Shown: positions 1-15,723 of the stretch, piece after piece
How the letters are laid out: each line of letters opens with the position of its first letter
Position numbering within the stretch: the first letter of the stretch is position 1
NCBI GenBank assembly: GCA_002450255.1
Contig: DJYW01000125.1
Span: 1 to 15,723 of the forward strand
Origin: Gammaproteobacteria bacterium UBA6968
GTDB taxonomy: Bacteria > Pseudomonadota > Gammaproteobacteria > Pseudomonadales > Azotimanducaceae
Length of the DNA: 15,723 nucleotides
Reading direction: 5' to 3'
Translations under genes and position numbers: made by a program
The notes under the pieces: generated by a model
What the model was told of the DNA's origin: nothing
Databases searched by the model: none
Seen by the model: the letters and a program-made list of their open reading frames with translations, nothing else

Positions 1-741
1 TTGCGCCCCGCTATTTTGCGGCAACGCTGCATTGTCAAAGGCGCCTGAACCGAGGGTTCCGCTAACCAATAGGCGGTCGCCATGCTTCCGCACTTGGGTG
101 GCTTTAACAGTAACCGCATAGCGACAATCGCTGATTAACAGTACGTTTTGTTGGTTAATCTGTTGCCGCCGGCTTGTGGCGCTATCACGCGACGAATCTA
201 TCGACCAGGGCCCTAACAGAGGCGCATCAGCAGCCAAACGGAAACTCGGCTGCAGCATATAGCGGGAGACGAGCATGTCCTGCTGGGGAATGAGTTTGGG
301 GGCGCGAATCCCTCGCCCACGGAAATGAACAGCATAATCAACACCATCGCGAGACACCGGCAACCCCAACATATCTGCCGCACCGCCCATGTCGTCGAAT
401 ATCTGGATGGGGCTAGGATGGAAGTATTCCGGCGTACTTGATGCACTTATTGGCAAACGATTAATCAATTGCTGCTGAGGATTCACACAGCCCAACGCAC
501 CGGTTTGTCGTAAGCTCGCCGACAAATACGCAAACGCCAATGCGGCGACTTCATCCTGGGCGCTACCATCAGCATGTAGCCGCCAAGCCTTGCGGCCGTC
601 GCTAAGGCTCTCGATCACCGCGAACATCAGTAAGGACATTAAAGTCAGTGCTAACAGCATTTCGAGCAGGCTAAATCCCAATGATTTAGACGTTAGAGAG
701 ACGAGTTGCGAACGCCCGCTATTCCTGGCCTGACCATTCAC
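1..741 (-). CDS. PilW-like type IV pilus minor prepilin (3' end beyond window)
   Basis: A minor pilin thought to help prime assembly of the type IV pilus in the inner membrane and periplasm. The frame is open from a GTG at 741 to the window edge (247 codons), so the C-terminus is missing. After a short basic leader it has the prepilin motif GFSLLEML with the usual Glu at +5, followed by a hydrophobic helix (roughly residues 23-45). This is the class III signal cut and N-methylated by prepilin peptidase PilD. The rest is soluble and matches no motif I recognise; PilW is proposed from gene order after a PilV-like gene. The start is chosen because AGGA lies about 11 nt upstream; an in-frame TTG directly after the upstream stop is an alternative. 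It begins about 25 nt after the PilV-like gene, so it is probably co-transcribed with it. Confidence 0.75.
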   Translation of the reverse strand, partial: MNGQARNSGRSQLVSLTSKSLGFSLLEMLLALTLMSLLMFAVIESLSDGRKAWRLHADGSAQDEVAALAFAYLSASLRQTGALGCVNPQQQLINRLPISASSTPEYFHPSPIQIFDDMGGAADMLGLPVSRDGVDYAVHFRGRGIRAPKLIPQQDMLVSRYMLQPSFRLAADAPLLGPWSIDSSRDSATSRRQQINQQNVLLISDCRYAVTVKATQVRKHGDRLLVSGTLGSGAFDNAALPQNSGAQ

Positions 742-765
742 GGCTTCGCAATCCTGACCGGCCAA

Positions 766-1320
766 TCAAAACGCAACCTGCGCGTTTACTTGTCGCGACA
801 CAACCGCGAGTTGACCATTCGACAACCTGTACCCTGCTTCAACTACCGCACCTCGCGCTGTGACAACCATACCGAGCTCTATTGCAGTGGCCTGGTTGCT
901 GGCAACCGCAGCATATGCGCTGCCTAACACTTTTTCTGTGCGCCGACGCAGCGCGACGCAAGCTGCCGCCGCATTATTGGTCGCGTACTGACACTGCTGT
1001 ACAGCAAGCAGAAACCCCAGCATCTGTTGCGTCGAACATCCGCTAGCGATGCAGAGCCTTGATGCGACAGGTTGCTGGCTACGAGATAAGTTCATGTCCG
1101 GCAGGGGGCGACTTTCAACCTCTTGGATACGCTTAATGACATGCAGCAACTGCTCAGTCTCTGTGACCGCGGTGACTTGCGCGGCAAGGTCGCTGCGCAC
1201 TGCAAATCCCTGAGTACTCAGGCTTACCGCGCCGGTGAGCACCGTACCGAGCAGCAGCATGGCCAGGAGCACTTCCATCAACGTGAATCCGCGAGCTGAC
1301 TTCATAACGATTTGCCGCAT
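766..1320 (-). CDS. PilV-like type IV pilus minor prepilin
   Basis: Minor pilin, 184 residues from the chosen ATG. The basic leader MRQIVMKSARG is followed by FTLMEVLLAML, a class III prepilin signal with Glu at +5 and a hydrophobic helix to about residue 35; cleavage is expected after Gly11. The soluble part has four cysteines (CIASGC, then QQC and AAC) that could form disulfides in the periplasm. The length and the GFTLxEVLLAxL motif fit the PilV/GspI type. The ATG at 1320 is preferred over an upstream ATG at 1374 because AGGCGG precedes it at good spacing and it avoids overlapping the upstream gene. It lies 22 nt after the PilE-like gene and just before the PilW-like gene. Assignment as PilV rather than another minor pilin is by position and motif only. 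Confidence 0.75.
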   Translation of the reverse strand: MRQIVMKSARGFTLMEVLLAMLLLGTVLTGAVSLSTQGFAVRSDLAAQVTAVTETEQLLHVIKRIQEVESRPLPDMNLSRSQQPVASRLCIASGCSTQQMLGFLLAVQQCQYATNNAAAACVALRRRTEKVLGSAYAAVASNQATAIELGMVVTARGAVVEAGYRLSNGQLAVVSRQVNAQVAF

Positions 1321-1342
1321 AGCTGATCCGCCTTGCTCAACA

Positions 1343-1852
1343 TCATTGAGACGGCCAATAGGTCTCATTGGCATCTATCTGACCATCGGCATTGGCATCC
1401 CAGGTGCGCGCTCCGGTAGAAGCCAGAGTATGCCGACCCAAGTGATTAAGACTCTGAATTGCAGGACTCGCAGTCAGCATGAACGCGGCGGGCTCGCTTG
1501 CGACATCAATTCGATACCGCCCTTGAGTAACACTACTGGGCGCGCAAATGTCGACTGCAATCGGCCCCTTCGGCGCATCGCCCAATCCATCGCCATTGCC
1601 ATCCGCCACTTTCGCGAGGCCCACCGCCAAGCCAATACGCTCGTGTAGTGCCTGCGCACAGTGCATCAAATCACTACGTACCTCTTGTCGGTAAGCCCGA
1701 TCAACGAACTTTTGGTAGGTCGGAACCGCAAACAAACTGATCGCCGCGATCAACGCCACCACCAATAACAGTTCGAGTAGGGTGAAACCTGAGGGTAAAG
1801 CTGGCTGTCGGGACCGAGCACAAGCAGCGGCAGTAACTACTGCTGCAGTCAA
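1343..1852 (-). CDS. PilE-like type IV pilus minor prepilin with two Ca-binding-type loops
   Basis: Prepilin with the motif SGFTLLELLLVVALIAAI, then a VPTYQKFVDRAYRQEV stretch typical of PilE/PilA-type pilins. Residues FMLTASP and LGRHTLASTG resemble the C-terminal part of PilE-type proteins. Two acidic loops stand out: DGNGDGLGD mid-protein, and DANADGQIDANE near the C-terminus. The second matches the EF-hand/dockerin loop at positions 1, 3, 5, 6, 8, 9 and 12, suggesting calcium binding. The start is uncertain: TTG at 1852 has AGGA six nt upstream and gives a 22-residue leader; ATG at 1897 (37-residue leader) and GTG at 1936 (50-residue leader) are also open but lack a clear ribosome site. 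It is first of the three prepilin genes; the 90 to 175 bp upstream may hold their promoter, but I could not identify one. Confidence 0.75.
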   Translation of the reverse strand: MTAAVVTAAACARSRQPALPSGFTLLELLLVVALIAAISLFAVPTYQKFVDRAYRQEVRSDLMHCAQALHERIGLAVGLAKVADGNGDGLGDAPKGPIAVDICAPSSVTQGRYRIDVASEPAAFMLTASPAIQSLNHLGRHTLASTGARTWDANADGQIDANETYWPSQ

Positions 1853-2026
1853 GCCAAGTCCTGCATACGGCTTTGTAAAGACTGATCCGGGTGTCATGTC
1901 CAAGGCGCACGTCCACGTCGATTTCTGAATGGACACGATGGCCGAAAGCGCGACTCAAGTTAACGGACTTAATCGGCTAGGAGCGTGCGAAATTAGCTTG
2001 TTATGGCAAAAGATAAAAACCGAGGT

Positions 2027-4882: not shown

Positions 4883-5968
4883 ATGCAAGAGCAATCCAAC
4901 CATGAATTAGCGACGGCTGCGCCGCGCCAGGGCGTCCTGCTAATCAACTTGGGTACCCCGGATTCTACCGAGATAGCAGACGTGCGACGGTATCTCGGCG
5001 AGTTCCTAATGGATCCGTATGTGCTCACCGCACCCTGGCCAATTCGCAAAATGATTGTTGGCGGTTTCATTTTGCCGTTTCGTCCAAAAAACAGCGCTGA
5101 AGCCTACGCGAAAATCTGGACCGAAGATGGCTCCCCTCTGTTAACCGGCAGTCAGTCCCTCGCAACCCATGTTGGCGCTGCACTTGATGTTCCCGTCGCA
5201 CTAAGCATGCGCTACGGTAACCCCAGCATAGCCAGTGGATTCGCTGAGCTTCAAGCCAAGGGTGTTACTGAGGCGCTGGTCGTCCCTTTGTATCCCCAAC
5301 ACGCTGACTCAACGATTACGACTTCGCTGAAAGCGGCGGAAAAGGCTCTCCCGGACGGTATGACCATGCGCACGCTAGCGCCGTTTTACCATCACCCGCA
5401 GCATCTCGCTGCATGGGGTGAGCTCATCAAAGCGCATCTGCCAGAAAAGTGGGATCACATTTTATTTAGCTATCACGGGGTCCCCGAAAGCCATTTGAAA
5501 AAGGCCGATCCAACAAACTCACACTGCCTCAAGGTTGACAACTGCTGCGATCGCAACAGCGACGCGCACGCCGTCTGCTACCGCCACCAAGTTATGCAGA
5601 CCTCACAAGGCATAGCCAACTTTTTATCTCTGCGGGAAGACCAATACAGCGTCACCTTCCAATCGCGTCTGGGCCCTATAGCGTGGTTAAAGCCCTATAC
5701 CGACGAGGTCCTGGCCGAGTTGCCCAGACAGGGCGTCAAACACCTGGCCGTCGCTTGTCCGGCTTTCGTGGTAGACAACCTGGAAACGCTGGAAGAGATC
5801 GGTATGCAAGGCAAAGAAACATTCCTCGAAGCGGGCGGAGAATCATTCCACCTCATTCCATGTCTGAATGATTCGCCTTTATGGGTGCAATCTCTGGCTG
5901 CCATCTGCGCCGAGTCCCTGGGTAAGCCAAATGATGCCGCTGCGGTCACAGTGTCTGCGTCAACTTAG
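4883..5968 (+). CDS. hemH: Ferrochelatase (protoporphyrin ferrochelatase)
   Basis: Inserts ferrous iron into protoporphyrin IX as the last step of heme synthesis, in the cytoplasm or at the inner membrane face. At 361 residues it begins with the family motif VLLINLGTPDS (18-28). The signature FSYHGVPESHLKKADP carries the catalytic His198, and ACPAFVVDNLETLEEIG carries the conserved acidic residues near 301-305. An internal cysteine cluster, Cys215-x5-Cys221-Cys222-x9-Cys232, lies right after the signature and resembles the insert of the bacterial [2Fe-2S] ferrochelatases; E. coli HemH lacks it. ATG 4883 is preferred because AGGA lies about 8 nt upstream; an in-frame GTG at 4865 has none. Its last 23 nt overlap the end of the convergent LysR gene. 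A TTGACT at 4826 could be a -35 element, but no matching -10 was seen. Confidence 0.93.
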   Translation: MQEQSNHELATAAPRQGVLLINLGTPDSTEIADVRRYLGEFLMDPYVLTAPWPIRKMIVGGFILPFRPKNSAEAYAKIWTEDGSPLLTGSQSLATHVGAALDVPVALSMRYGNPSIASGFAELQAKGVTEALVVPLYPQHADSTITTSLKAAEKALPDGMTMRTLAPFYHHPQHLAAWGELIKAHLPEKWDHILFSYHGVPESHLKKADPTNSHCLKVDNCCDRNSDAHAVCYRHQVMQTSQGIANFLSLREDQYSVTFQSRLGPIAWLKPYTDEVLAELPRQGVKHLAVACPAFVVDNLETLEEIGMQGKETFLEAGGESFHLIPCLNDSPLWVQSLAAICAESLGKPNDAAAVTVSAST

Positions 5969-6800
5969 AGATTTCGGCGTGAAATGAGCGCACCAATTCA
6001 CGCGCAAACATCGATTTTCGCGCAACAAAGCGCACCGGACGAGTCAGACCTTCGGCGCCGAACGGAATCAATACCGCATCGTCCAAGCCTAGCGTCTGCG
6101 CGACACCCACGGGCACAAGACCGTGCCCAAACCCGGATACGGCCATTTGCGCCACCGCAAAAAAAGACTCCAGGGACGCAACTCGAACCAAGTTAAGACG
6201 CTGCATATTTTCTTCGATGGACCCCCAGGCGCCGGATCGCGATTCAATTGTTAGCACCTCAAGCGGCTTACCGACCTTGTATTTGATCGGAACCAATCCC
6301 GCAGGGATCACAACCATGGGCTCTTGGTGAATTACTTCCGACACAAGATCGGTATCTGCATCCGAACTCCCCGTGCATATACCAACCATATATTCACCGG
6401 ATCGCAGTCGATCTAAAACCACCGGCGAGCGTTGCGCGTGAAATTCAAACTCGAGGCTTGGCAAGGTGTCGCGAACAGCGGCAAATAGCGGCGGCCCCCA
6501 GCTAGAAAGGATCGCCTCGGAAACGCCAAGGATAATCTTGCCTTTGCGCAACGCATTGTCTTCTAAAAACACGCTACGCAGCTCGGACAGCAGCGGAGTT
6601 ACCCGCTCGACTAATCGGGTGCCGTGGGCAGTCAGCACTACCCGTCGGCCGTGTCGTTCGATTAACTCTCGATCGTAGTATTTTTCCAGCGCGGCAATCC
6701 GTTTACTGACTGCGGATTGAGAAATCCGTAAAGCGGTGCTGGCCTCCATCATGGTGCCAGATTTTGAGAGTGCTACGAGCGTTTCCAAGTTTTCAATCAT
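5946..6800 (-). CDS. LysR-family transcriptional regulator
   Basis: A 284-residue LysR-type regulator. Residues 1-60 form the winged helix-turn-helix, with the recognition region ALRISQSAVSKRIAALEKYY and the typical LTAHGTRL wing. The remainder is a substrate-binding-type effector domain starting near KGKIILGVSE (87-96). The family activates or represses a neighbouring, usually divergent, target in response to a small molecule. The divergent neighbour here encodes a TSUP permease, making it the natural target; the effector is unknown, possibly an organic acid or sulfonate/sulfite-type substrate of that permease. The ATG at 6800 has no strong Shine-Dalgarno. A good -10 (TATGAT) lies about 30 nt upstream and overlaps a TAAT-N3-ATTA dyad, compatible with autoregulation. 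The 3' end overlaps hemH by 23 nt tail to tail. Confidence 0.9.
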   Translation of the reverse strand: MIENLETLVALSKSGTMMEASTALRISQSAVSKRIAALEKYYDRELIERHGRRVVLTAHGTRLVERVTPLLSELRSVFLEDNALRKGKIILGVSEAILSSWGPPLFAAVRDTLPSLEFEFHAQRSPVVLDRLRSGEYMVGICTGSSDADTDLVSEVIHQEPMVVIPAGLVPIKYKVGKPLEVLTIESRSGAWGSIEENMQRLNLVRVASLESFFAVAQMAVSGFGHGLVPVGVAQTLGLDDAVLIPFGAEGLTRPVRFVARKSMFARELVRSFHAEISKLTQTL

Positions 6801-6934: not shown

Positions 6935-7666
6935 ATGAATGTCAGCTTGGTGCTGATTCTCGCTTTTTTTACCAGCGCTCTATCTGGTGTGCTTGGAATG
7001 GCTGGCGGATCAATTCTGATGGCGGGCATGGTGCTGTTTTTGCCAGTAAGCACGGCAATGGTATTACACGCGTTGATTCAATTTGTGGCCAATGGCACGC
7101 GCGCAATTGTGCTGCGACAGCACCTGTCACTTGGATTGCTTATTCCCTATGTCGTGGGGGCTGGCGTAGCTCTGGCTGTGTTCATCAGCTTGGCGTTTAC
7201 CCCAAGCGCTAATCTGGTCTTGATTTTGATCGGGTTATTTCCGCTAGCCGCGGAGCTGAGACTGTTCCCCCGCGACATGGACATTACCCGCCCGCTAACC
7301 GGTATTGTGTGCGGCTTGGTGGTCACCAGCGCACAACTGCTGGCCGGTGTCGCCGGACCGGTTTTGGACTCTTTCTATCAACAGAGTCCACTACAACGAC
7401 AGTCGATCGTCGCTAACAAAGCCCTCACCCAAGCATTGGGACACAGCATTCGCATGCTCTACTACGGATTTTTGCTGGCACTTCCCAGCGATTTGCCTAT
7501 GTGGGTTTTGGGGGTAGCTATTGCCGTCGCGGTGCTCGGTACCCAAGCGGGCACCGCATTGTTACAGCGCTGGAACGAGGATGACTTTCGCAAGATAAGC
7601 CGCTGGGTCATCTTAAGTGTTGCCACTCTATGCCTAGGACGCGGCCTTTATGGCGCGTTGGTTTAA
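6935..7666 (+). CDS. TSUP-family (TauE/SafE, DUF81) membrane permease
   Basis: A 243-residue, very hydrophobic inner-membrane protein with about seven to eight predicted membrane segments (roughly 4-24, 26-50, 66-88, 90-106, 119-140, 174-212, 223-241). The N-terminal motif SGVLGMAGGSILMAGM is the hallmark of the TSUP family, which moves anions such as sulfite, sulfoacetate or other organosulfur and organic anions; the second family half (GVAGPVLDSFYQ, with NKALTQALGHSIRM) is also recognisable. Length is normal. TGGAG lies 8 nt before the ATG. A weak promoter (TTACTG at 6837, TATTCT at 6861, 18-nt spacing) precedes it. It is divergent from a LysR regulator that probably controls it. It ends 13 nt from the end of the convergent carboxylase gene; no clear terminator lies between them. 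The substrate is not predictable from sequence. Confidence 0.85.
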   Translation: MNVSLVLILAFFTSALSGVLGMAGGSILMAGMVLFLPVSTAMVLHALIQFVANGTRAIVLRQHLSLGLLIPYVVGAGVALAVFISLAFTPSANLVLILIGLFPLAAELRLFPRDMDITRPLTGIVCGLVVTSAQLLAGVAGPVLDSFYQQSPLQRQSIVANKALTQALGHSIRMLYYGFLLALPSDLPMWVLGVAIAVAVLGTQAGTALLQRWNEDDFRKISRWVILSVATLCLGRGLYGALV

Positions 7667-7679
7667 GGCCAGGCTTTGT

Positions 7680-10600
7680 TTAACTTGCGACCGGTTTAAC
7701 CACAAACAGCAAATCACCAACGTTCACCTGCTGGCCATTATTCATATTCACTCTGGTCACTTCATAACTGAGCGCTGGATCATAAATCTGCGCCTCACCA
7801 TTGAAATCCGCCAAGGTCAGCGGGGTGAATATCTTCATCGCCTCCAACTGACATAGAGTCTGCCCAAGCCCAACTTTATCGCCAACCTGAACGTACTCCG
7901 GCTCCGAAGGTGATGGCGTGCTGTAAAAGATAGCCGTTGCGGGAGCAAGTACTTTGAGTTCATCACTGTCAGCAATCATCACACTTTGACGGCTAATACC
8001 TTCGCTGGTCGCACCAGCGCCGGCTTCTATCTCGTTAACCAGCGCCTCGATATCCGTCCGCGCCAACAACTCTGGCAGATAATTCGTGTCGTACTCCGCG
8101 CGATGAAAACCATCATCTTTTAATATGCGCCGCAGCAACGGAATATTCGTGCAAATGCCGGTTAACTCAACACGCGCCAGATAAGCTTCTAATTTGGCTG
8201 CGGCGTTTTCGCGATTGTCGCTGTGTACGATCACCTGGGCGACCATACTGTCGTAATACGGCGAAACGAATGTGTCAGTCGCTACCGCCGCGATCACTTC
8301 AACGTCTTCTTCTTCAGGAAAGTGACAGTTCAGTACCTTGCCTGGATGTGGCCGGAAGGCTAGGCCGCCGTCGCCTTGCACAACGATTCGCTCGGCGTTT
8401 ATTCGTGCTTCGACCGCATAACCTGTTTCCGTCACCTGTAAATCAGCAATCGATTCGCCGCTGGCTATGCGGAATTGCTCAGCGACGATATTGACCCCAG
8501 ACGTCCATTCAGTGACCGGGTGCTCTACCTGCAGCCGAGTGTTCATTTCCATGAAATACACAGCATTGTTCTTGAGATCAAAAATAAATTCGACGGTTCC
8601 GGCGCCGACGTAACCGACCTCATTGGCCAGCTCAGCCGTACTGCGCAGGACTTCATCGAGCAGGTGCTGGGGCAAATGCGGCGACCCAGACTCTTCAATG
8701 ACTTTTTGCTTGTCGCGTTGCACGCTACAATCGCGGATACCAATCACCTTGGTATTACCATGCGTATCGCGCAGTAACTGAGCTTCTATATGCTTGAGCG
8801 ACGTGACGTACTTTTCGAGGTACACATCGCCGTTACCGAATGCACTGCGTGCTTCAATCCCCACGCGGTGGAAGAGCTCCTCGAATTCCCCGGCATTTTC
8901 AACGACTTGAATGCCCTTACCGCCGCCGCCATGCACAGCCTTGATTAAAACCGGGTAACCGATTTGCTCCGCGACCTCAGCTGCGCGCTCAACGTTCGTC
9001 ATGATTCCATGGCTACCCGGCACCACCGGGACCTTCAACCGTAACGCCGTATTAATAGCGTTAGACTTATTACCCATGGTCTCCATGCTGGCCACTGGCG
9101 GACCAATAAAATTAATGCCATGACTGCGGATCAACTCCGCAAAAGCAGAATTTTCCGACAAAAACCCGATACCAGGATGCAGACTATCCACACCTTCGTG
9201 CTCCGCAACGTTGAGCACACTCATGGCATTCAAGTAGCTCTCGTCCGGAGTATTGCCACCGATGCAGACTACCGTATCGCGCTCGCCTAACTGGGACACG
9301 GTTGCCGAATCCATATCCGGATCACTCTGCACCAGAACCACTGAAATTTCTTGTTGTTGCGCAATGCGGATCAATTTAGCGGCGGTACAGCCCCGCGCAT
9401 GAATCAATACCTTGCGTGTGGGCCGGATTAGAGACGCTTCGGTATAGGTCGGCCGATGCGCCACCACGACCGGACGCCTTACATCGATACTGCCAGCCAA
9501 AACCCGCGCCATAACTGCTTCAACCGTCTCCTCTGGGACAGGAATTTCGGCATCGACAGCGCGCAGCTGCGAATCAATATCCGCGTAGAAAGGGTGCTTC
9601 ACAAGGCCTTGCATCGCACCGTCCGAAGTCGACAGGTAATTCGCGAGAATCGACTTCAACGGCAAGTTAGAAGGCACAACGATTTGCCCTGCGAACGGCA
9701 TGCTTGTGCCCGAAAAATAATAGGTCTGCACTAATGGATGAGTAACGAAACTCGCTTGCGCGCCACCGGTACAATCGCCGTAACCAAATACAATCACCGG
9801 TAAATCGTGATCGCGAACAAAGCGGGTAATGCGGTCATTAACTGCAGCCATTGAAAACAGCGCGCCTGCCCCTTCCTTGGTTTGCATGCCGCCGGAAGAA
9901 ATAAAACAAACCAGCGGCAAGTGCTGCTCTGCGCACTCAACCAAAAGGCGACAGAACTTCTCGGCGCTCGCCATATCAAATGCGCCAGCCTGGAACTGCA
10001 CGTTAGAAACAAGCACCCCTACCCGGGTATTTCGACTGCCTTTTACTGAACCAAACCCAGCTACAATGCCACACGGTGGCAATCCCTTGTTGAGCGCTTG
10101 CTCGATACTCAGTCGAAAGCCAGGAAAAGAACAGGGATCCGAGCTCAACAAATCGTCATAGCGCGGTTCCCAATCCTCGAAATAGTTGTCAATGATGTCG
10201 TTGCAGCCAAAGCGCGTGGCGCCTTTAACGGCTTTCAAGACGTTCTGCATCTGGAGATCGTTATAGGCCATATCCAGGCGGTTCCAAAAGTCTTTACGAC
10301 GACCGATATTTTTCGGTGCAATCCGCCCCTGGAAATTACGTCCGTCCCGCGACGCCGAGATCAAACTGGTCAAAAGCTGATTCAAGGTATAGCTGATGAC
10401 AACAAACAACGCGTCGGCAATATGCGGGAAGCTGAGCTTTTTCCATTCTTCTACGGTGCGATAAAAATCTTCGCTCTTCGGCATCTTATGTAGACGCTGA
10501 TGCCAGTCGAACAATCGCGCCTGTGTTGAAGCCAGCGTTTTCCCTTCACTGATTTGATCTGCAGCGAGACTCGAGTTGGCCGAGTCGAGGGTGGTCGCGA

Positions 10601-12524
10601 TGAGCTTCTCCAAGCTTTCTCTGGACAGCGCCTGAGCACCCTGAGCCTCCGCCGCGACACTGTCCATATGTGCGATGACCTCGTCGTATACGCCATCAAA
10701 CAACAGCAGATTTTCGCACTCTTGTATGAAGTCGCCGCGCAATTCGTCGTTTAGAAGAATGTCCAGCAGAGTCATATCTGCTATGGCTACGGGCCTGGCA
10801 CCAATTTGCGGCGGCTCGATTGATGCCGGCATCAATTCATGCAATACCCGGCGATTAGCTGACATATCGGATTCGCTCGACGATTGCGCCAGACGTTCGC
10901 CAGTGATAATCATATTGAGTTCGGTGGTTAGCTGTCGTGCTACCGATGCGCCTGCCTCTATCTGCTCACTGAAGCTACCAAGCAATTTGCGGCCTTCATA
11001 GGAAAAACGCTCCCGCCACACTGAAGCATCGCTGTCCTGGGTGAGCTTCTCTAGAACAATTTTAGGATCGTGAATATCCTGTACCTGCAAAATTTGCCGT
11101 GTATCTTGATGGTTCCGTAAATACTCACGCAGTGCCGCCAAATTGTCGCGCGCTTCTTTTTTCCAGCGGTTGTATAAGAAAGTTCCCACCGTTGCGATTA
11201 ATGTCGCGCGAGCATCTTCATAGTTTTGTTTGGGTTCGCCGAAAATCATTTGCGCAATACGACCGCGCTCATCATTCATCGCCTGTCGACGATCGACATA
11301 GCTCTTCCAGGCTTTCGACAGACTGTCTTCGTAAATGATCTTATCGGGATCTTGCAGCCAATACAGAAACTTCTGACGACGTTCCCGGTCGGTCCGTTCT
11401 TTCAACTCACCAGCCGGCATTTCTTGCGGTGCTAAACGTCCGTATTGCTGCGTTGAGGTGGCTTTAATGCGCTTGCGCACCTGTAAATAACGCAGATAAC
11501 GGTAAGCGATACCGAAAACGTTAGTATACTCGGTAGGGTTTTTCGCTAAGCGCAGTGAGGCGCTGCTCTCCATCGCCTGCAAATGCGCAGACGGTTTCAG
11601 GTAACGCTGCAAGCTTTGCCGATAATGATCAACGATATAGGGGTTTTCACCCACAAATTCTCTGACTCGCGTTTCAATATTCGCTAGACCGCCAATAATC
11701 GCTTGGCGTAAATTTTCGAGATTTTCCTGAGAATCGTTGGGACTGTAATCAACTATGCCGTCGATATTACCCTGCTGGAAGAGCTCAACCGCAGACGGCC
11801 CTACAAATTTCGCACACTCCTGCCAAGACAAGTTCATGCGCCGCGCGATGTTGGCAAGTGCTGCGGGCTGAATCGTATTAAAGACTGAATCTCGTAGCGC
11901 CAGAATCATGTTGCTAGCAGCTAACGGTATAGCTCCGCCTGAATAACCCAACCCGTAAATCAGGCCGATGTTTGGCACATCCGCATTGCTCATCTCGGCG
12001 ATCAATCGGGAGATACTGTGCGCTTGATTCTGCGCGTTAGCTTCTTCACGAGCATCGGCACCGGGGGTGTCCATAAAGCTCACTAGCGGCACCGACCGAG
12101 CTGAACAATATTCGACAAAACGCGCTGCTTTGAGGTGATGCTCAGGCATCCAGCTACCAAGGTCTTTAGACCGATCCTGGGCGATGAAGCCGACCTGACG
12201 TAAACCTTGAGGACCAAAATCCATATCAACCAAGGCTTGGTAATAAGGACCGGTGGTATTTTCTTCGCGCACTATTCCAAGCTGGCGGATGATGTCCGGT
12301 GCTGGCTGACGGCTTTGATCTTCTGATGGAGTCACCGCCGCCTCGATATAGGCATCTACATCCAACGACTTCAACTGAGCATGCATACGCTTTATTGCAC
12401 GCTCAGATAGCAATCCAGGCACAGGTTGGTCATCTTGCGAGACATCGGGGAACAGCGAAAAGTCTTTCGCTAGGCTTTCTGCTATTAAAAAGAGGCGATC
12501 CCCTTCAATAAGTTGTTTTTCCAC
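7680..12524 (-). CDS. Single-chain acyl-CoA carboxylase (CT-alpha / linker / CT-beta / biotin carboxylase / biotin carrier fusion)
   Basis: One 1614-residue chain holds a complete biotin-dependent carboxylase, expected to make malonyl-CoA or a related carboxyacyl-CoA from bicarbonate, ATP and acyl-CoA. Residues 90-300 are AccA-like: FMDTPGADA (150-158), the oxyanion motif GLGYSGGAIPL (191-201), and GNIDGIVD. Residues 301-780 match nothing I know and look mostly helical and charged. Residues 800-1000 are AccD-like: ISSGGMQTKEG (875-885), CTGGAQASF (918-926), FAGQIVV; the AccD zinc-ribbon cysteines are absent. Residues 1037-1480 are biotin carboxylase: HGGGGKGI (1198-1205), Lys1195, Lys1153, Lys1274, EMNTRLQVEHPVTE (1326-1339), Arg1374. 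Residues 1525-1610 are the carrier, biotinylated at Lys1564 in EAMKIF. The GTG start at 12524 lacks a Shine-Dalgarno, so the N-terminus is uncertain; the next in-frame ATG is codon 47. Acyl specificity is unknown. The gene is divergent from moaB. Confidence 0.92.
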   Translation of the reverse strand: MEKQLIEGDRLFLIAESLAKDFSLFPDVSQDDQPVPGLLSERAIKRMHAQLKSLDVDAYIEAAVTPSEDQSRQPAPDIIRQLGIVREENTTGPYYQALVDMDFGPQGLRQVGFIAQDRSKDLGSWMPEHHLKAARFVEYCSARSVPLVSFMDTPGADAREEANAQNQAHSISRLIAEMSNADVPNIGLIYGLGYSGGAIPLAASNMILALRDSVFNTIQPAALANIARRMNLSWQECAKFVGPSAVELFQQGNIDGIVDYSPNDSQENLENLRQAIIGGLANIETRVREFVGENPYIVDHYRQSLQRYLKPSAHLQAMESSASLRLAKNPTEYTNVFGIAYRYLRYLQVRKRIKATSTQQYGRLAPQEMPAGELKERTDRERRQKFLYWLQDPDKIIYEDSLSKAWKSYVDRRQAMNDERGRIAQMIFGEPKQNYEDARATLIATVGTFLYNRWKKEARDNLAALREYLRNHQDTRQILQVQDIHDPKIVLEKLTQDSDASVWRERFSYEGRKLLGSFSEQIEAGASVARQLTTELNMIITGERLAQSSSESDMSANRRVLHELMPASIEPPQIGARPVAIADMTLLDILLNDELRGDFIQECENLLLFDGVYDEVIAHMDSVAAEAQGAQALSRESLEKLIATTLDSANSSLAADQISEGKTLASTQARLFDWHQRLHKMPKSEDFYRTVEEWKKLSFPHIADALFVVISYTLNQLLTSLISASRDGRNFQGRIAPKNIGRRKDFWNRLDMAYNDLQMQNVLKAVKGATRFGCNDIIDNYFEDWEPRYDDLLSSDPCSFPGFRLSIEQALNKGLPPCGIVAGFGSVKGSRNTRVGVLVSNVQFQAGAFDMASAEKFCRLLVECAEQHLPLVCFISSGGMQTKEGAGALFSMAAVNDRITRFVRDHDLPVIVFGYGDCTGGAQASFVTHPLVQTYYFSGTSMPFAGQIVVPSNLPLKSILANYLSTSDGAMQGLVKHPFYADIDSQLRAVDAEIPVPEETVEAVMARVLAGSIDVRRPVVVAHRPTYTEASLIRPTRKVLIHARGCTAAKLIRIAQQQEISVVLVQSDPDMDSATVSQLGERDTVVCIGGNTPDESYLNAMSVLNVAEHEGVDSLHPGIGFLSENSAFAELIRSHGINFIGPPVASMETMGNKSNAINTALRLKVPVVPGSHGIMTNVERAAEVAEQIGYPVLIKAVHGGGGKGIQVVENAGEFEELFHRVGIEARSAFGNGDVYLEKYVTSLKHIEAQLLRDTHGNTKVIGIRDCSVQRDKQKVIEESGSPHLPQHLLDEVLRSTAELANEVGYVGAGTVEFIFDLKNNAVYFMEMNTRLQVEHPVTEWTSGVNIVAEQFRIASGESIADLQVTETGYAVEARINAERIVVQGDGGLAFRPHPGKVLNCHFPEEEDVEVIAAVATDTFVSPYYDSMVAQVIVHSDNRENAAAKLEAYLARVELTGICTNIPLLRRILKDDGFHRAEYDTNYLPELLARTDIEALVNEIEAGAGATSEGISRQSVMIADSDELKVLAPATAIFYSTPSPSEPEYVQVGDKVGLGQTLCQLEAMKIFTPLTLADFNGEAQIYDPALSYEVTRVNMNNGQQVNVGDLLFVVKPVAS

Positions 12525-12558: not shown

Positions 12559-12582
12559 AGCCACTTGTGCAGCCATTCGCAA
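12554..12582 (-). promoter_or_regulatory. Candidate promoter of the fused carboxylase gene
   Basis: On the minus strand, TTGCGA (12582-12577), a 17-nt spacer, then TAGAGT (12559-12554), each with four of six consensus matches. It would start transcription near 12547, leaving a leader of about 23 nt before the GTG. If both this and the moaB promoter are real, the polymerases compete for the same bases. Confidence 0.35.
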
Positions 12583-12590
12583 TGAGAGCC

Positions 12591-13094
12591 ATGACCTCCC
12601 TAAGTTGTTCAGTTTTGACCATTTCTGACTCACGTAGCTTGGCCGACGACCGCTCCGGCGATTTGTTGGTTGGGTTTGTCGAAGCCGCCGGCCACCGCCT
12701 GATAGAGCGGGAATTAGTGCCAGACGATATTTATCAAATCCGCGCCATTAGCTCGAAATGGATCGCTGCAAACGAAGTGGATGTCATCATCACCACCGGC
12801 GGTACTGGCTTCACGGGCCGTGACAGCACCCCGGAAGCGCTGACACCGCTCTTCGACAAAGAAATCGAAGGATTTGGGGAAACATTCCGATACCTGTCCT
12901 ATCTTGAAATCGGCACCTCAACCATCCAATCCAGAGCGTTAGCTGGGCTCGCCAATGGCACCTTGATCTTCGCTCTGCCCGGCTCCTCCGGTGCAGTCAC
13001 CACCGGATGGAATAAAATCATTAAAAATCAACTAGATATAAACAATAAGCCGTGCAATTTTGCGGAGTTGATTCCCCGCTTTAAAGAGATCTGA
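12591..13094 (+). CDS. moaB: Molybdenum cofactor biosynthesis protein MoaB (MogA/MoaB fold)
   Basis: Member of the MoaB/MogA molybdopterin-binding family; family members adenylylate molybdopterin before molybdate insertion, though the E. coli MoaB itself has no firmly established reaction. The 167-residue length is normal. N-terminal CSVLTISDSRSLADDRSG (6-23) matches the family opening; the molybdopterin-binding motifs TTGGTGFTGRDSTPEAL (68-84) and ALPGSSGAV (128-136) are intact. The start is ATG 12591 by alignment with the family opening and weak GAGAG upstream; in-frame GTG 12567 and ATG 12582 would add a few residues. No other molybdenum cofactor genes adjoin. It is divergent from the fused carboxylase, with about 66 bp between start codons, and lies 184 nt before the thiolase. 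Confidence 0.9.
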   Translation: MTSLSCSVLTISDSRSLADDRSGDLLVGFVEAAGHRLIERELVPDDIYQIRAISSKWIAANEVDVIITTGGTGFTGRDSTPEALTPLFDKEIEGFGETFRYLSYLEIGTSTIQSRALAGLANGTLIFALPGSSGAVTTGWNKIIKNQLDINNKPCNFAELIPRFKEI

Positions 13095-13156: not shown

Positions 13157-13227
13157 AACCGCCGAGAATGGGTCAACTGCCGGCGTCACCCTAGGCGCGG
13201 GTAACTGGTTCTAGCCGGTGCATGGCA

Positions 13228-13256
13228 TTACACTTCACACCTTTCCGATCCGTAAT
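13228..13256 (+). promoter_or_regulatory. Candidate promoter of the thiolase gene
   Basis: TTACAC (13228-13233), a 17-nt spacer and CGTAAT (13251-13256), each with four of six consensus matches. The expected transcription start would leave a leader of only about 15 nt, which includes the ribosome site AAAGGA. Moderate matches only. Confidence 0.3.
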
Positions 13257-13278
13257 TGCTTGTAAAAGGAACAGCACG

Positions 13279-14439
13279 ATGACCAGAGACGTCTATATTC
13301 TTGGCGCAGCGCGTACACCGGTTGGCAGTTTTCAAGGTTCACTGGCGTCCGCCAGCGCCCCGGAGCTCGGTGCCCATGCGATTTCCGCAGCATTGCAGTC
13401 AGCTGCACAGGACGGCAGCGCCGTTGACGAAGTAATTATGGGCAATGTCGTGAGCGCCGGCTTAAAACAGGCACCGGCGCGGCAGGCAATGCGTATTGCG
13501 GGCCTGCCGGATGGCGTGGCCGCCACCACTCTGAATAAAGTCTGCGGTTCGGGAATGAAAGCCACAATGACTGCCATGGACATCATCCGCGCTGGGTCTG
13601 CGGAAACCGTTATCGCTGGCGGTATGGAAAGCATGAGCAATGCGCCCTATCTACTCGATAAAGCACGTAGCGGTCTGCGAATGGGTCATGCAGGGGTCCA
13701 AGATTCGCTGTTTACAGATGGCTTAGAGGATGCCGAAACCGGCGGTTCAATGGGTTCCTTCGCGCAAGACACTGCCGATGCACACCAGCTAACACGAGCC
13801 GCTATGGACGACTATGCCATCGAGTCGGTTAACCGAGCGCGGCAGGCAATTGCGAACGGTGACCTTACCAGCGAAATCGCGCCGTTTGCGGTGGGTGCAG
13901 ACAGCATCACTGATGATGAACAACCCGGCCGCGCTAAAGTCGACAAAATTCCTCAGCTGCGTCCTGCCTTCAAAAAAGACGGCACCATCACTGCCGCTAA
14001 CGCATCGTCAATTTCCGATGGCGCATCGGCATTGGTGCTGACTTCAGAAGAAGGCCTGGCTGGCCGCGCGCCCTTGGCCCGCATAGTCGCCCACACGACA
14101 CACTCCATCCATCCAAGCGAATTCACCCTGGCGCCCATTGGCGCGATTGAGAAATTGTTGGCTAAGACCGGCTGGGATAAAGGCAGCGTCGATTTGTTTG
14201 AGATCAATGAAGCCTTCGCAATGGTGACGATGCTCACTATCCAAGAGCTGCAGCTGGATCATGCCAAGGTGAACGTTTTCGGTGGCGCATGTGCGCAAGG
14301 CCATCCAATCGGATCGACGGGCAGTCGGTTGATCGTGACCCTGGCGCATGCCATGAAAAATCGCGGCCTCAAGCGCGGCATCGCGGCGCTCTGTATCGGC
14401 GGCGGCGAAGCCACTGCGGTGGCACTGGAAAGAAGCTAA
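13279..14439 (+). CDS. Acetyl-CoA acetyltransferase / thiolase
   Basis: Type II thiolase of 386 residues, which either condenses two acetyl-CoA to acetoacetyl-CoA or cleaves 3-ketoacyl-CoA. The N-terminus VYILGAARTPVGSFQG is typical. The acylated Cys89 lies in NKVCGSGMKA, the family motif GGMESMSNAPYL is at 114-125, NEAFA at 310-314, the catalytic His342 in AQGHPIGSTG, and the second Cys372 in LCIGGGEA. The compact length without extra loops fits the biosynthetic acetyl-CoA acetyltransferase group better than the FadA type. The start is ATG 13279, with AAAGGA 9 nt upstream; an in-frame ATG at 13222 lacks a ribosome site and lies beyond the family start. Downstream is a FabY-like synthase on the same strand, separated by 193 nt with several hairpins. 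The direction of the reaction in vivo is not shown by the sequence. Confidence 0.93.
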   Translation: MTRDVYILGAARTPVGSFQGSLASASAPELGAHAISAALQSAAQDGSAVDEVIMGNVVSAGLKQAPARQAMRIAGLPDGVAATTLNKVCGSGMKATMTAMDIIRAGSAETVIAGGMESMSNAPYLLDKARSGLRMGHAGVQDSLFTDGLEDAETGGSMGSFAQDTADAHQLTRAAMDDYAIESVNRARQAIANGDLTSEIAPFAVGADSITDDEQPGRAKVDKIPQLRPAFKKDGTITAANASSISDGASALVLTSEEGLAGRAPLARIVAHTTHSIHPSEFTLAPIGAIEKLLAKTGWDKGSVDLFEINEAFAMVTMLTIQELQLDHAKVNVFGGACAQGHPIGSTGSRLIVTLAHAMKNRGLKRGIAALCIGGGEATAVALERS

Positions 14440-14632: not shown

Positions 14633-15723
14633 GTGACCGGACCTAAAAATAATACGCCACTACCGCTCATCGTCGGCTGCGGCGGCATCAATGCGGCGGG
14701 CAGAATCTCTTTTAACCACGCTTATCGTCGCATGGTGATAGACAGCTTGCCTGAAACGAAACGCGACTCTACCTACGCCAGCCTTGCACAATTGATGGGG
14801 CTTGGCGCCGCCAACAGCCACAACACCAACGTGCGCCAAACCATTCTCGACCATACCCTGATTCGGCGCATCGAAAACTTCGACGCAGACGCCGTCTACT
14901 GGCAGGGTAAAGCGAAACTAGGTGGCGTAGCGGGCCCGAGTCTCACCTTTACCATCGCTAAACGTGATTTACCCGCCAACATCCCCAGCGACTGGCAAGT
15001 GACGCCGCTGGGCGATAACCAAGTTCGAGTGGAGTGCCCGAACGGGGTCGATACCATGATGCCGGACTGGCGTCCGTCTAAAGTAACCAGCGCCGCAGAA
15101 TTGCCACGCGGCTTCAACCCGGGCGATTTATATCCAAGCCGTAACCACCCACGTGCACTACAGATGACGATTTATGCAGCGTCGGACGCGCTACGCTCCA
15201 CCGGCTTTAGCGTCGAAGACTTAAAGGGGATGGTTAGCCCCGACGAATTCGCTGTCTATTCCGGTTCGGCCATGGGTCAGCTGGATACCGACTCGTATGC
15301 CGGGCTGTTTCAGAACCCGCTCTTGGGCAAACGGCCTACGTCGAAACATTGCGCACTATCGCTTCCGGAAATGGCCGGCGATTTCGTGAACGCCTACGTA
15401 CTCGGCTCTGTCGGTGAAACCGCCGGCATCATTGGCGCTTGCGCAACGTTCCTATACAACCTGAAACGCGGCATGGACGATATTCGCAACGGCGACAAGC
15501 GTATTGTCATCGTCGGTAATTCCGAAGCACCGGTAGTCCCCCACGTGATAGAGGGCTATCGGGTTATGGGCGCACTGGCAGAGGACGATGCTTTGCGGGC
15601 ACTGGATGATGCTGAGCATTGCGATAATCGTCGCGCCTGCCGCCCGTTTTCCTCCAACGCCGGTTTTACTGTTGCAGAGGCTTCCGTATGGGTCGTGTTG
15701 ATGGATGACACGCTCGCGATAAA
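14633..15723 (+). CDS. FabY-like beta-ketoacyl-ACP synthase (N-terminal 363 codons, runs off window)
   Basis: Ketosynthase resembling Pseudomonas FabY, which condenses acetyl-CoA with malonyl-ACP to start fatty acid synthesis. The opening LIVGCGGINAAGRISFNHAY (12-31) and RRMVIDSL parallel the FabY start as I recall it. FNPGDLYPSRNHPRALQM (161-178) and YSGSAMGQLD follow, and the nucleophile is Cys270 in GETAGIIGACATFLYNL. The later ketosynthase histidines would lie beyond the window edge. FabY is about 630 residues, so roughly 40% is missing. The start is GTG 14633 with AAGGA about 10 nt upstream; ATG codons just before it are in another frame. It follows the thiolase on the same strand, and with the fused carboxylase it suggests a role around malonyl-CoA use. 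A polyketide-type ketosynthase is the main alternative. Confidence 0.85.
   Translation, partial: MTGPKNNTPLPLIVGCGGINAAGRISFNHAYRRMVIDSLPETKRDSTYASLAQLMGLGAANSHNTNVRQTILDHTLIRRIENFDADAVYWQGKAKLGGVAGPSLTFTIAKRDLPANIPSDWQVTPLGDNQVRVECPNGVDTMMPDWRPSKVTSAAELPRGFNPGDLYPSRNHPRALQMTIYAASDALRSTGFSVEDLKGMVSPDEFAVYSGSAMGQLDTDSYAGLFQNPLLGKRPTSKHCALSLPEMAGDFVNAYVLGSVGETAGIIGACATFLYNLKRGMDDIRNGDKRIVIVGNSEAPVVPHVIEGYRVMGALAEDDALRALDDAEHCDNRRACRPFSSNAGFTVAEASVWVVLMDDTLAI

Follow-up and report, generated by a model that had tools for sequence, protein, structure and literature searches.

A single open frame of a gammaproteobacterial contig seems to encode a whole acyl-CoA carboxylase, with the carboxyltransferase (CT) placed first. 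Is this chain real, is its layout already known, and which role does it have in the cell? The window, meaning the whole stretch of DNA analysed, has 15,723 nucleotides (contig DJYW01000125.1 of Gammaproteobacteria bacterium UBA6968). We conclude that, very probably, the frame is accS, an orthologue of the Shewanella gene for AccS, and its product makes malonyl-CoA for fatty-acid synthesis.

The accS frame and the domains of its product

The frame runs uninterrupted on the minus strand, from 12524 down to 7680. The earlier note gave these coordinates and the 1614 codons correctly and left the strand unstated. The 25 further open codons 5' of the GTG start hold no ATG, GTG or TTG. With the base composition of the window (GC 54%), a run of 1614 open codons would arise by chance with a probability of about 1e-29. 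The gene and its parts are the following.

7680..12524, minus: accS, single-chain acetyl-CoA carboxylase, 1614 codons, GTG start
11637..12200, minus: CT-alpha (AccA-like) domain, residues 109-296 (PF03255, PF01039, alignment to E. coli AccA 130-310)
10173..11636, minus: helical connector between the CT halves, residues 297-784 (PDB match 9kkm)
9510..10172, minus: CT-beta (AccD-like) domain, residues 785-1005 (TIGR00515 at 785-928, alignment to AccD 129-293)
8055..9419, minus: biotin carboxylase (BC) domain, residues 1036-1490 (PF00289, PF02786, PF02785; AccC 41% identity)
7695..7952, minus: biotin carrier (BCCP) domain, residues 1525-1610 (PF00364; AccB K122 = K1564)

The order along the chain is observed directly: CT-alpha comes first, then a connector some 490 residues long, CT-beta, the biotin carboxylase and, last, the biotin carrier. 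Pfam places ACCA (PF03255) at residues 119-276 and Carboxyl_trans (PF01039) in two stretches, the best at 109-227. The three biotin-carboxylase domains (PF00289, PF02786, PF02785) lie at about 1036-1487, and Biotin_lipoyl (PF00364) at 1528-1608. The CT-beta half is picked up by the accD model TIGR00515 (785-928). The scores of AccS with the accA and accD models are above chance and below the NCBI cut-offs for stand-alone proteins. The proteins of E. coli K-12 align in the same order. AccA 130-310 corresponds to AccS 120-296 (27% of 177 positions), AccD 129-293 to 844-1005 (26% of 157), AccC 4-444 to 1038-1487 (41% of 438) and AccB 83-156 to 1525-1610 (39% of 74). The motif order of the earlier note (AccA-like, AccD-like, biotin carboxylase, carrier) agrees with these Pfam, NCBIfam and E. 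coli alignments, and the domain search it proposed found CT-alpha, CT-beta, BC and BCCP in that order in one chain. Its estimate of about 480 residues between the CT halves is close to the observed gap of about 490 (297-784).

We compared 11 positions of E. coli AccC, which we take to be its active-site positions. Ten of them are identical in the window's AccS, and H236 is replaced by K. The predicted biotin-accepting lysine is Lys1564, equivalent to AccB K122, in the motif EAMKI. The key catalytic residues that had been claimed are present to this extent. These ten residues and the biotin lysine are invariant in 19/19 AccS proteins, from 19 of the 20 AccS genomes of the class and order samples together (G197, with its accS cut at a contig end, was omitted). 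Among the checked glycines of both CT sites, one position deviates in one of these 19 proteins only, the divergent one of genome G188. The AccD zinc ribbon (two CxxC) is absent, and no CxxC occurs anywhere in the chain. Judged from its residues, the window's AccS is probably active.

The window's genome is a draft (94% complete, 187 contigs), and this could speak for an assembly chimera, or for neighbouring acc genes joined by a frameshift. However, the frame is not an assembly artefact, because the genome as a whole contains a single uninterrupted copy of full length and an AccS frame of more than 1450 residues is present in 73 of the 79 related loci fetched (the best 79 of the scan), some of them on contigs of more than 4 Mb. 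Likewise, the other 119 of the 120 proteins listed, from 1967 found, share 64-73% identity with the query across 92-100% of its length. A solved protein chain, 9kkm, has the identical layout. The related loci, the relatives and the solved chain already refute such a join, and its probability is practically nil.

This solved chain, 9kkm_A, is the PDB match of the window's protein (1638 bits). It aligns with residues 8-472 and 581-1612, with 473-580 unaligned. The entry is named acetyl-CoA carboxylase multifunctional enzyme AccADCB, and 9w4a has the same sequence. Its title describes the cryo-EM acetyl-CoA carboxyltransferase holoenzyme dimer of Shewanella oneidensis, mutant E1238A (released 2025-11-19). 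A 102-residue stretch of 9kkm is 99% identical to AccS of Shewanella ANA-3. A search of the PDB with the connector at E <= 0.001 matches only Shewanella AccS (9kkm), with which the connector agrees in sequence and, in the fold search, in helical fold. The AlphaFold alignment of the connector held 63 of 90 connector sequences. Our search of one library of papers found none on the 9kkm structure.

The Shewanella enzyme itself has been described. AccS of S. oneidensis is a multiple-domain carboxylase with a domain order unlike that of eukaryotes, seen as a biotinylated band near 170 kDa (PMC11602165). There, accS is activated by the LysR regulator AccR. The growth of an accR mutant, low in AccS, is restored by extra accS, and also by E. 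coli accA, accD and accBC together (PMC11602165). The earlier note knew of no characterised enzyme with this layout. That claim falls, since S. oneidensis AccS is published (PMC11602165) and structure 9kkm is solved. The homology search for the same order, which the note proposed, finds this characterised match, and the novelty is gone. It is close to certain that the window's protein is an AccS orthologue.

As an orthologue of Shewanella AccS/AccADCB, the accS product would make malonyl-CoA for fatty-acid synthesis. The BC domain would carboxylate the biotin on Lys1564 of the C-terminal carrier, using ATP and bicarbonate. The carrier would then move to the carboxyltransferase site built from the N-terminal CT-alpha and CT-beta, where acetyl-CoA would be converted to malonyl-CoA. 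The helical connector parts the CT halves in sequence and should unite them in the dimer, in the way of the Shewanella holoenzyme dimer. For the window's AccS, we infer acetyl-CoA as the main substrate, as well as biotinylation, enzymatic activity and the dimer state.

Neighbourhood and distribution of accS

The genes around accS in the window are listed below.

5946..6800, minus: LysR-type regulator, same direction as accS (PF00126, PF03466)
6935..7666, plus: TauE/SafE-type transporter, between accS and the LysR gene (PF01925)
12567..13094, plus: moaB (molybdenum cofactor), divergent from accS (TIGR02667 over cut-off)
13222..14439, plus: acetyl-CoA acyltransferase, or thiolase (TIGR01930 over cut-off)
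14633..15721, plus: beta-ketoacyl synthase, cut by the window end (PF00109)

Several of these genes recur beside accS in 89 loci, some of which are too short to include the flanks. A ketoacyl synthase is near accS in 45 of them, a thiolase in 41 (39 of these, like that of the window, on the opposite strand to accS), MoaB in 37, a TauE-type transporter in 23 and HemH in 20. A LysR match lies on the accS strand in 23/89 loci and on the opposite strand in none. At the far end of the window (1-1936, minus), frames with the prepilin-like N-terminal signatures GFSLLE, GFTLME and GFTLLE were seen by eye.

The LysR gene of the window was considered as an orthologue of AccR and ruled out. It lies downstream of accS in the same direction, and its product shares 22% identity (49/224) with that of the LysR gene which Shewanella ANA-3 has in divergent position to accS. 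The window has no divergent accR beside accS; the divergent neighbour is moaB. A divergent accR is the arrangement of Shewanella and some other genera and does not define the AccS enzyme. A second LysR near accS, in the same direction, is reported in PMC11602165, and the LysR of the window fits it. We regard this LysR as a candidate for the regulation of accS in these bacteria.

Among the 79 best loci in the GTDB scan are ones from Pseudomonadales, Oceanospirillaceae, Shewanella, Motilimonas and Psychromonas. By submitter titles, they also include metagenome-assembled genomes of Lentisphaeria/Lentisphaerae, Kiritimatiellae, Verrucomicrobia, Acidobacteria, Desulfuromonadales/Desulfuromonadaceae, Deltaproteobacteria and Planctomycetota. 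We built a quick tree from 92 of 98 AccS frames, those longer than 1450 residues (G197, cut at the contig end, was left out). Nine sequences whose titles place them outside Pseudomonadota form one branch with SH-aLRT 100 (L136, L142, L144, L145, L156, L132, L135, L140 and L152). Two are on long branches, and one is on a contig of 1.95 Mb. Another locus, L121, titled Chloroflexota, sits among Pseudomonadales with their neighbouring genes and is probably mis-binned. The account in PMC11602165 has AccS confined to Shewanella and a few gammaproteobacterial genera. The titles given by submitters, on which this comparison rests, suggest that the family reaches past those genera.

AccS and the four-gene carboxylase

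We searched 145 genomes of the window's order, at least 90% complete, for AccS (E <= 1e-200) and for accA and accD (E <= 1e-40). AccS is present in 17 of them, and 15 of these 17 miss both accA and accD. The two that keep both, G188 and G226, belong to one family. Of the 128 genomes that lack AccS, 126 carry accA and accD together; the other two are G277, with accA alone, and G290, without either. Two other sampled members of the genus of G290 carry AccS, and its own may have been missed or broken in the assembly. The presence of AccS goes with the loss of accA and accD (Fisher p 2e-17, a value that ignores the kinship of the genomes).

A class sample of 184 genomes was screened for AccS and accD. 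Four of them carry AccS. In three (G000, G005 and G126) the best accD match has E 1.6e-10 to 6.9e-10, the level expected from the CT-beta of AccS itself. The fourth, G149, keeps a full accD. Genomes G188, G226 and G149 all keep accBC. The housekeeping role may not belong to AccS in every genome, since G188 and G226 keep accA and accD, G149 keeps accD, and all three keep accBC.

The window's own genome has no accA or accD match at E <= 1e-40, and no accC between accB and prmA. Single gene absences are weak evidence here, because this genome is 94% complete and in 187 contigs. Judging by gene content, AccS is likely the main acetyl-CoA carboxylase of this cell. In part of one bacterial order, the four-gene system seems to have given way to the fused enzyme. 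Several states are still visible: both systems together, AccS with an orphan accB, AccS with an AccB N-terminal stub, and AccS without an AccB match.

A specialised acyl-CoA carboxylase, for longer chains or a secondary pathway, working beside an ordinary acetyl-CoA carboxylase, would be a different role for the protein. The divergent AccS of G188 and G226, 39% identical to that of the window, could point to it. Both genomes keep accA, accD and accBC, and their divergent accS follows genes of a FabA-like dehydratase, a ketoacyl synthase and a FabV-type reductase.

L074:2695-10610 (G188), one strand: divergent accS cluster, with the three genes just named ahead of accS and an AraC-type regulator gene on the far side
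L075:6017-13709 (G226), one strand: divergent accS cluster, with the same preceding genes and an AraC-type regulator gene on the far side

These clusters are possibly a self-contained second fatty-acid operon. However, such an ordinary partner enzyme has no separate accA or accD match in the window's genome. The four other carboxyltransferase frames of this genome, which match most of the PF01039 model at 277-405 bits, appear by inference to be of the propionyl/methylcrotonyl type. The specialised role is quite improbable for the window's AccS, and we retain the synthesis of malonyl-CoA for fatty acids.

Other carboxylase frames were also observed. The window's genome has a second single-chain carboxylase (contig C88, about 14979-18284, minus), a 1130-codon frame in the order BC, biotinyl, CT. 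In genomes G216 and G247, AccC-like frames that pass the cut-off lie near frames of 622 codons with a biotinyl stretch; these pairs are possibly two-part pyruvate carboxylases.

The old accBC locus also differs among these genomes. Where accC is retained (G149, G188 and G226), the gene string is aroQ, accB, accC, prmA. In the window's genome, G217 and G299, it is aroQ, accB, prmA; accC has been lost from it, and an intact accB with the motif ESMKMMN remains. In three genomes of one other genus (G203, G238 and G290), two of them with AccS found, a much shorter frame stands between aroQ and prmA.

L043:5581-6036 (own genome, contig C51), minus: orphan full-length accB with biotin motif, accC missing before prmA
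L052:1498-1914, minus: orphan full-length accB with biotin motif, accC missing before prmA
L051:1498-1962, minus: orphan full-length accB with biotin motif, accC missing before prmA
L071:3843-4013 (G203), minus: mini-AccB, 56 codons, AccB N-terminus only, between aroQ and prmA
L072:4014-4193 (G238), minus: mini-AccB, 59 codons, AccB N-terminus only, between aroQ and prmA
L073:3673-3843 (G290), minus: mini-AccB, 56 codons, AccB N-terminus only, between aroQ and prmA

The mini-AccB peptide is matched in 133 of the 145 order genomes. The open frame at the match has at most 61 codons in G203, G238 and G290 only, and at least 143 in all others. The 17 AccS genomes of the order divide into 10 without an AccB match, 3 with orphan accB, 2 with the short form and 2 with the full old operon. 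In the first 35 codons, all 25 codon differences between G203 and G238 are silent, with 0 replacements, which favours selection on the peptide. Comparison with G290 gives a less clear picture, with 13 silent and 13 replacement differences from G203, and 10 and 13 from G238. A protein search with mini-AccB found 89 relatives. The best 25 have 55-72 residues (24/25 at 55-60), two of them on contigs of more than 1 Mb. Many weaker short matches, on contigs of less than 2 kb, could be the ends of genes. Another short family of the AccB N-terminus (P0186, 56 residues) occurs on 153 contigs from several sources, including Tara, and may be another lineage with the same reduction.

We propose tentatively, and with some doubt, that the old accBC operon was dismantled when AccS took over and that the AccB N-terminus survived as a working peptide, in some of the window's family within a full-length orphan AccB and in another genus as a mini-AccB of 56-59 residues that carries no biotin. 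This peptide may act by binding to the BC domain of AccS, or by controlling AccS expression. The N-terminal part of AccB is reportedly enough for regulation of the E. coli acc operon. E. coli AccB has been proposed as a regulator of its own operon (PMC11602165). A plainer explanation is that the full-length orphan AccB serves another biotin carboxylase. The window's genome has a stand-alone AccC-like frame on contig C2 (457 bits, cut-off 626.5) and other biotin carboxylase frames, consistent with this. If a working peptide was indeed kept, the AccB N-terminus would have a function apart from carrying biotin.

Comparison with other carboxylases

All four catalytic parts of E. coli AccA, AccB, AccC and AccD are common to the window's AccS, with 26-41% identity and shared active-site residues. 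However, the E. coli enzyme consists of four separate polypeptides, and AccS is one chain. The AccD zinc ribbon is missing from it, and the N-terminal part of AccB falls outside the aligned part.

Eukaryotic single-chain carboxylases have the order BC, BCCP, central region, CT. In contrast, CT precedes BC and BCCP in the window's AccS; the Pfam placement bears out the earlier claim of an order unlike the eukaryotic one. The eukaryotic enzymes and the actinobacterial SACE_4237 also unite BC, BCCP, CT and a non-catalytic part in one chain (PMC6491548), whereas AccS has CT first and the connector inside CT. Their central region is common to actinobacteria and eukaryotes (PMC6491548). The AccS connector differs from it: at E <= 0.001, its sole PDB match is 9kkm. 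An N-terminal CT, followed by BC-BCCP, is also a feature of long-chain carboxylases (LCC; PMC6491548).

AccS/AccADCB of S. oneidensis has the domain order and content found here along the whole chain, connector included. The connector is about 100 residues longer in the window's AccS (506 against 400 in ten Shewanella sequences, same span). In Shewanella a LysR gene is divergent from accS, whereas the window has none divergent and another LysR downstream in the same direction, a layout that PMC11602165 notes for many AccS bacteria. The layout of the enzyme is already known, and the window's AccS adds a relative to the AccS family.
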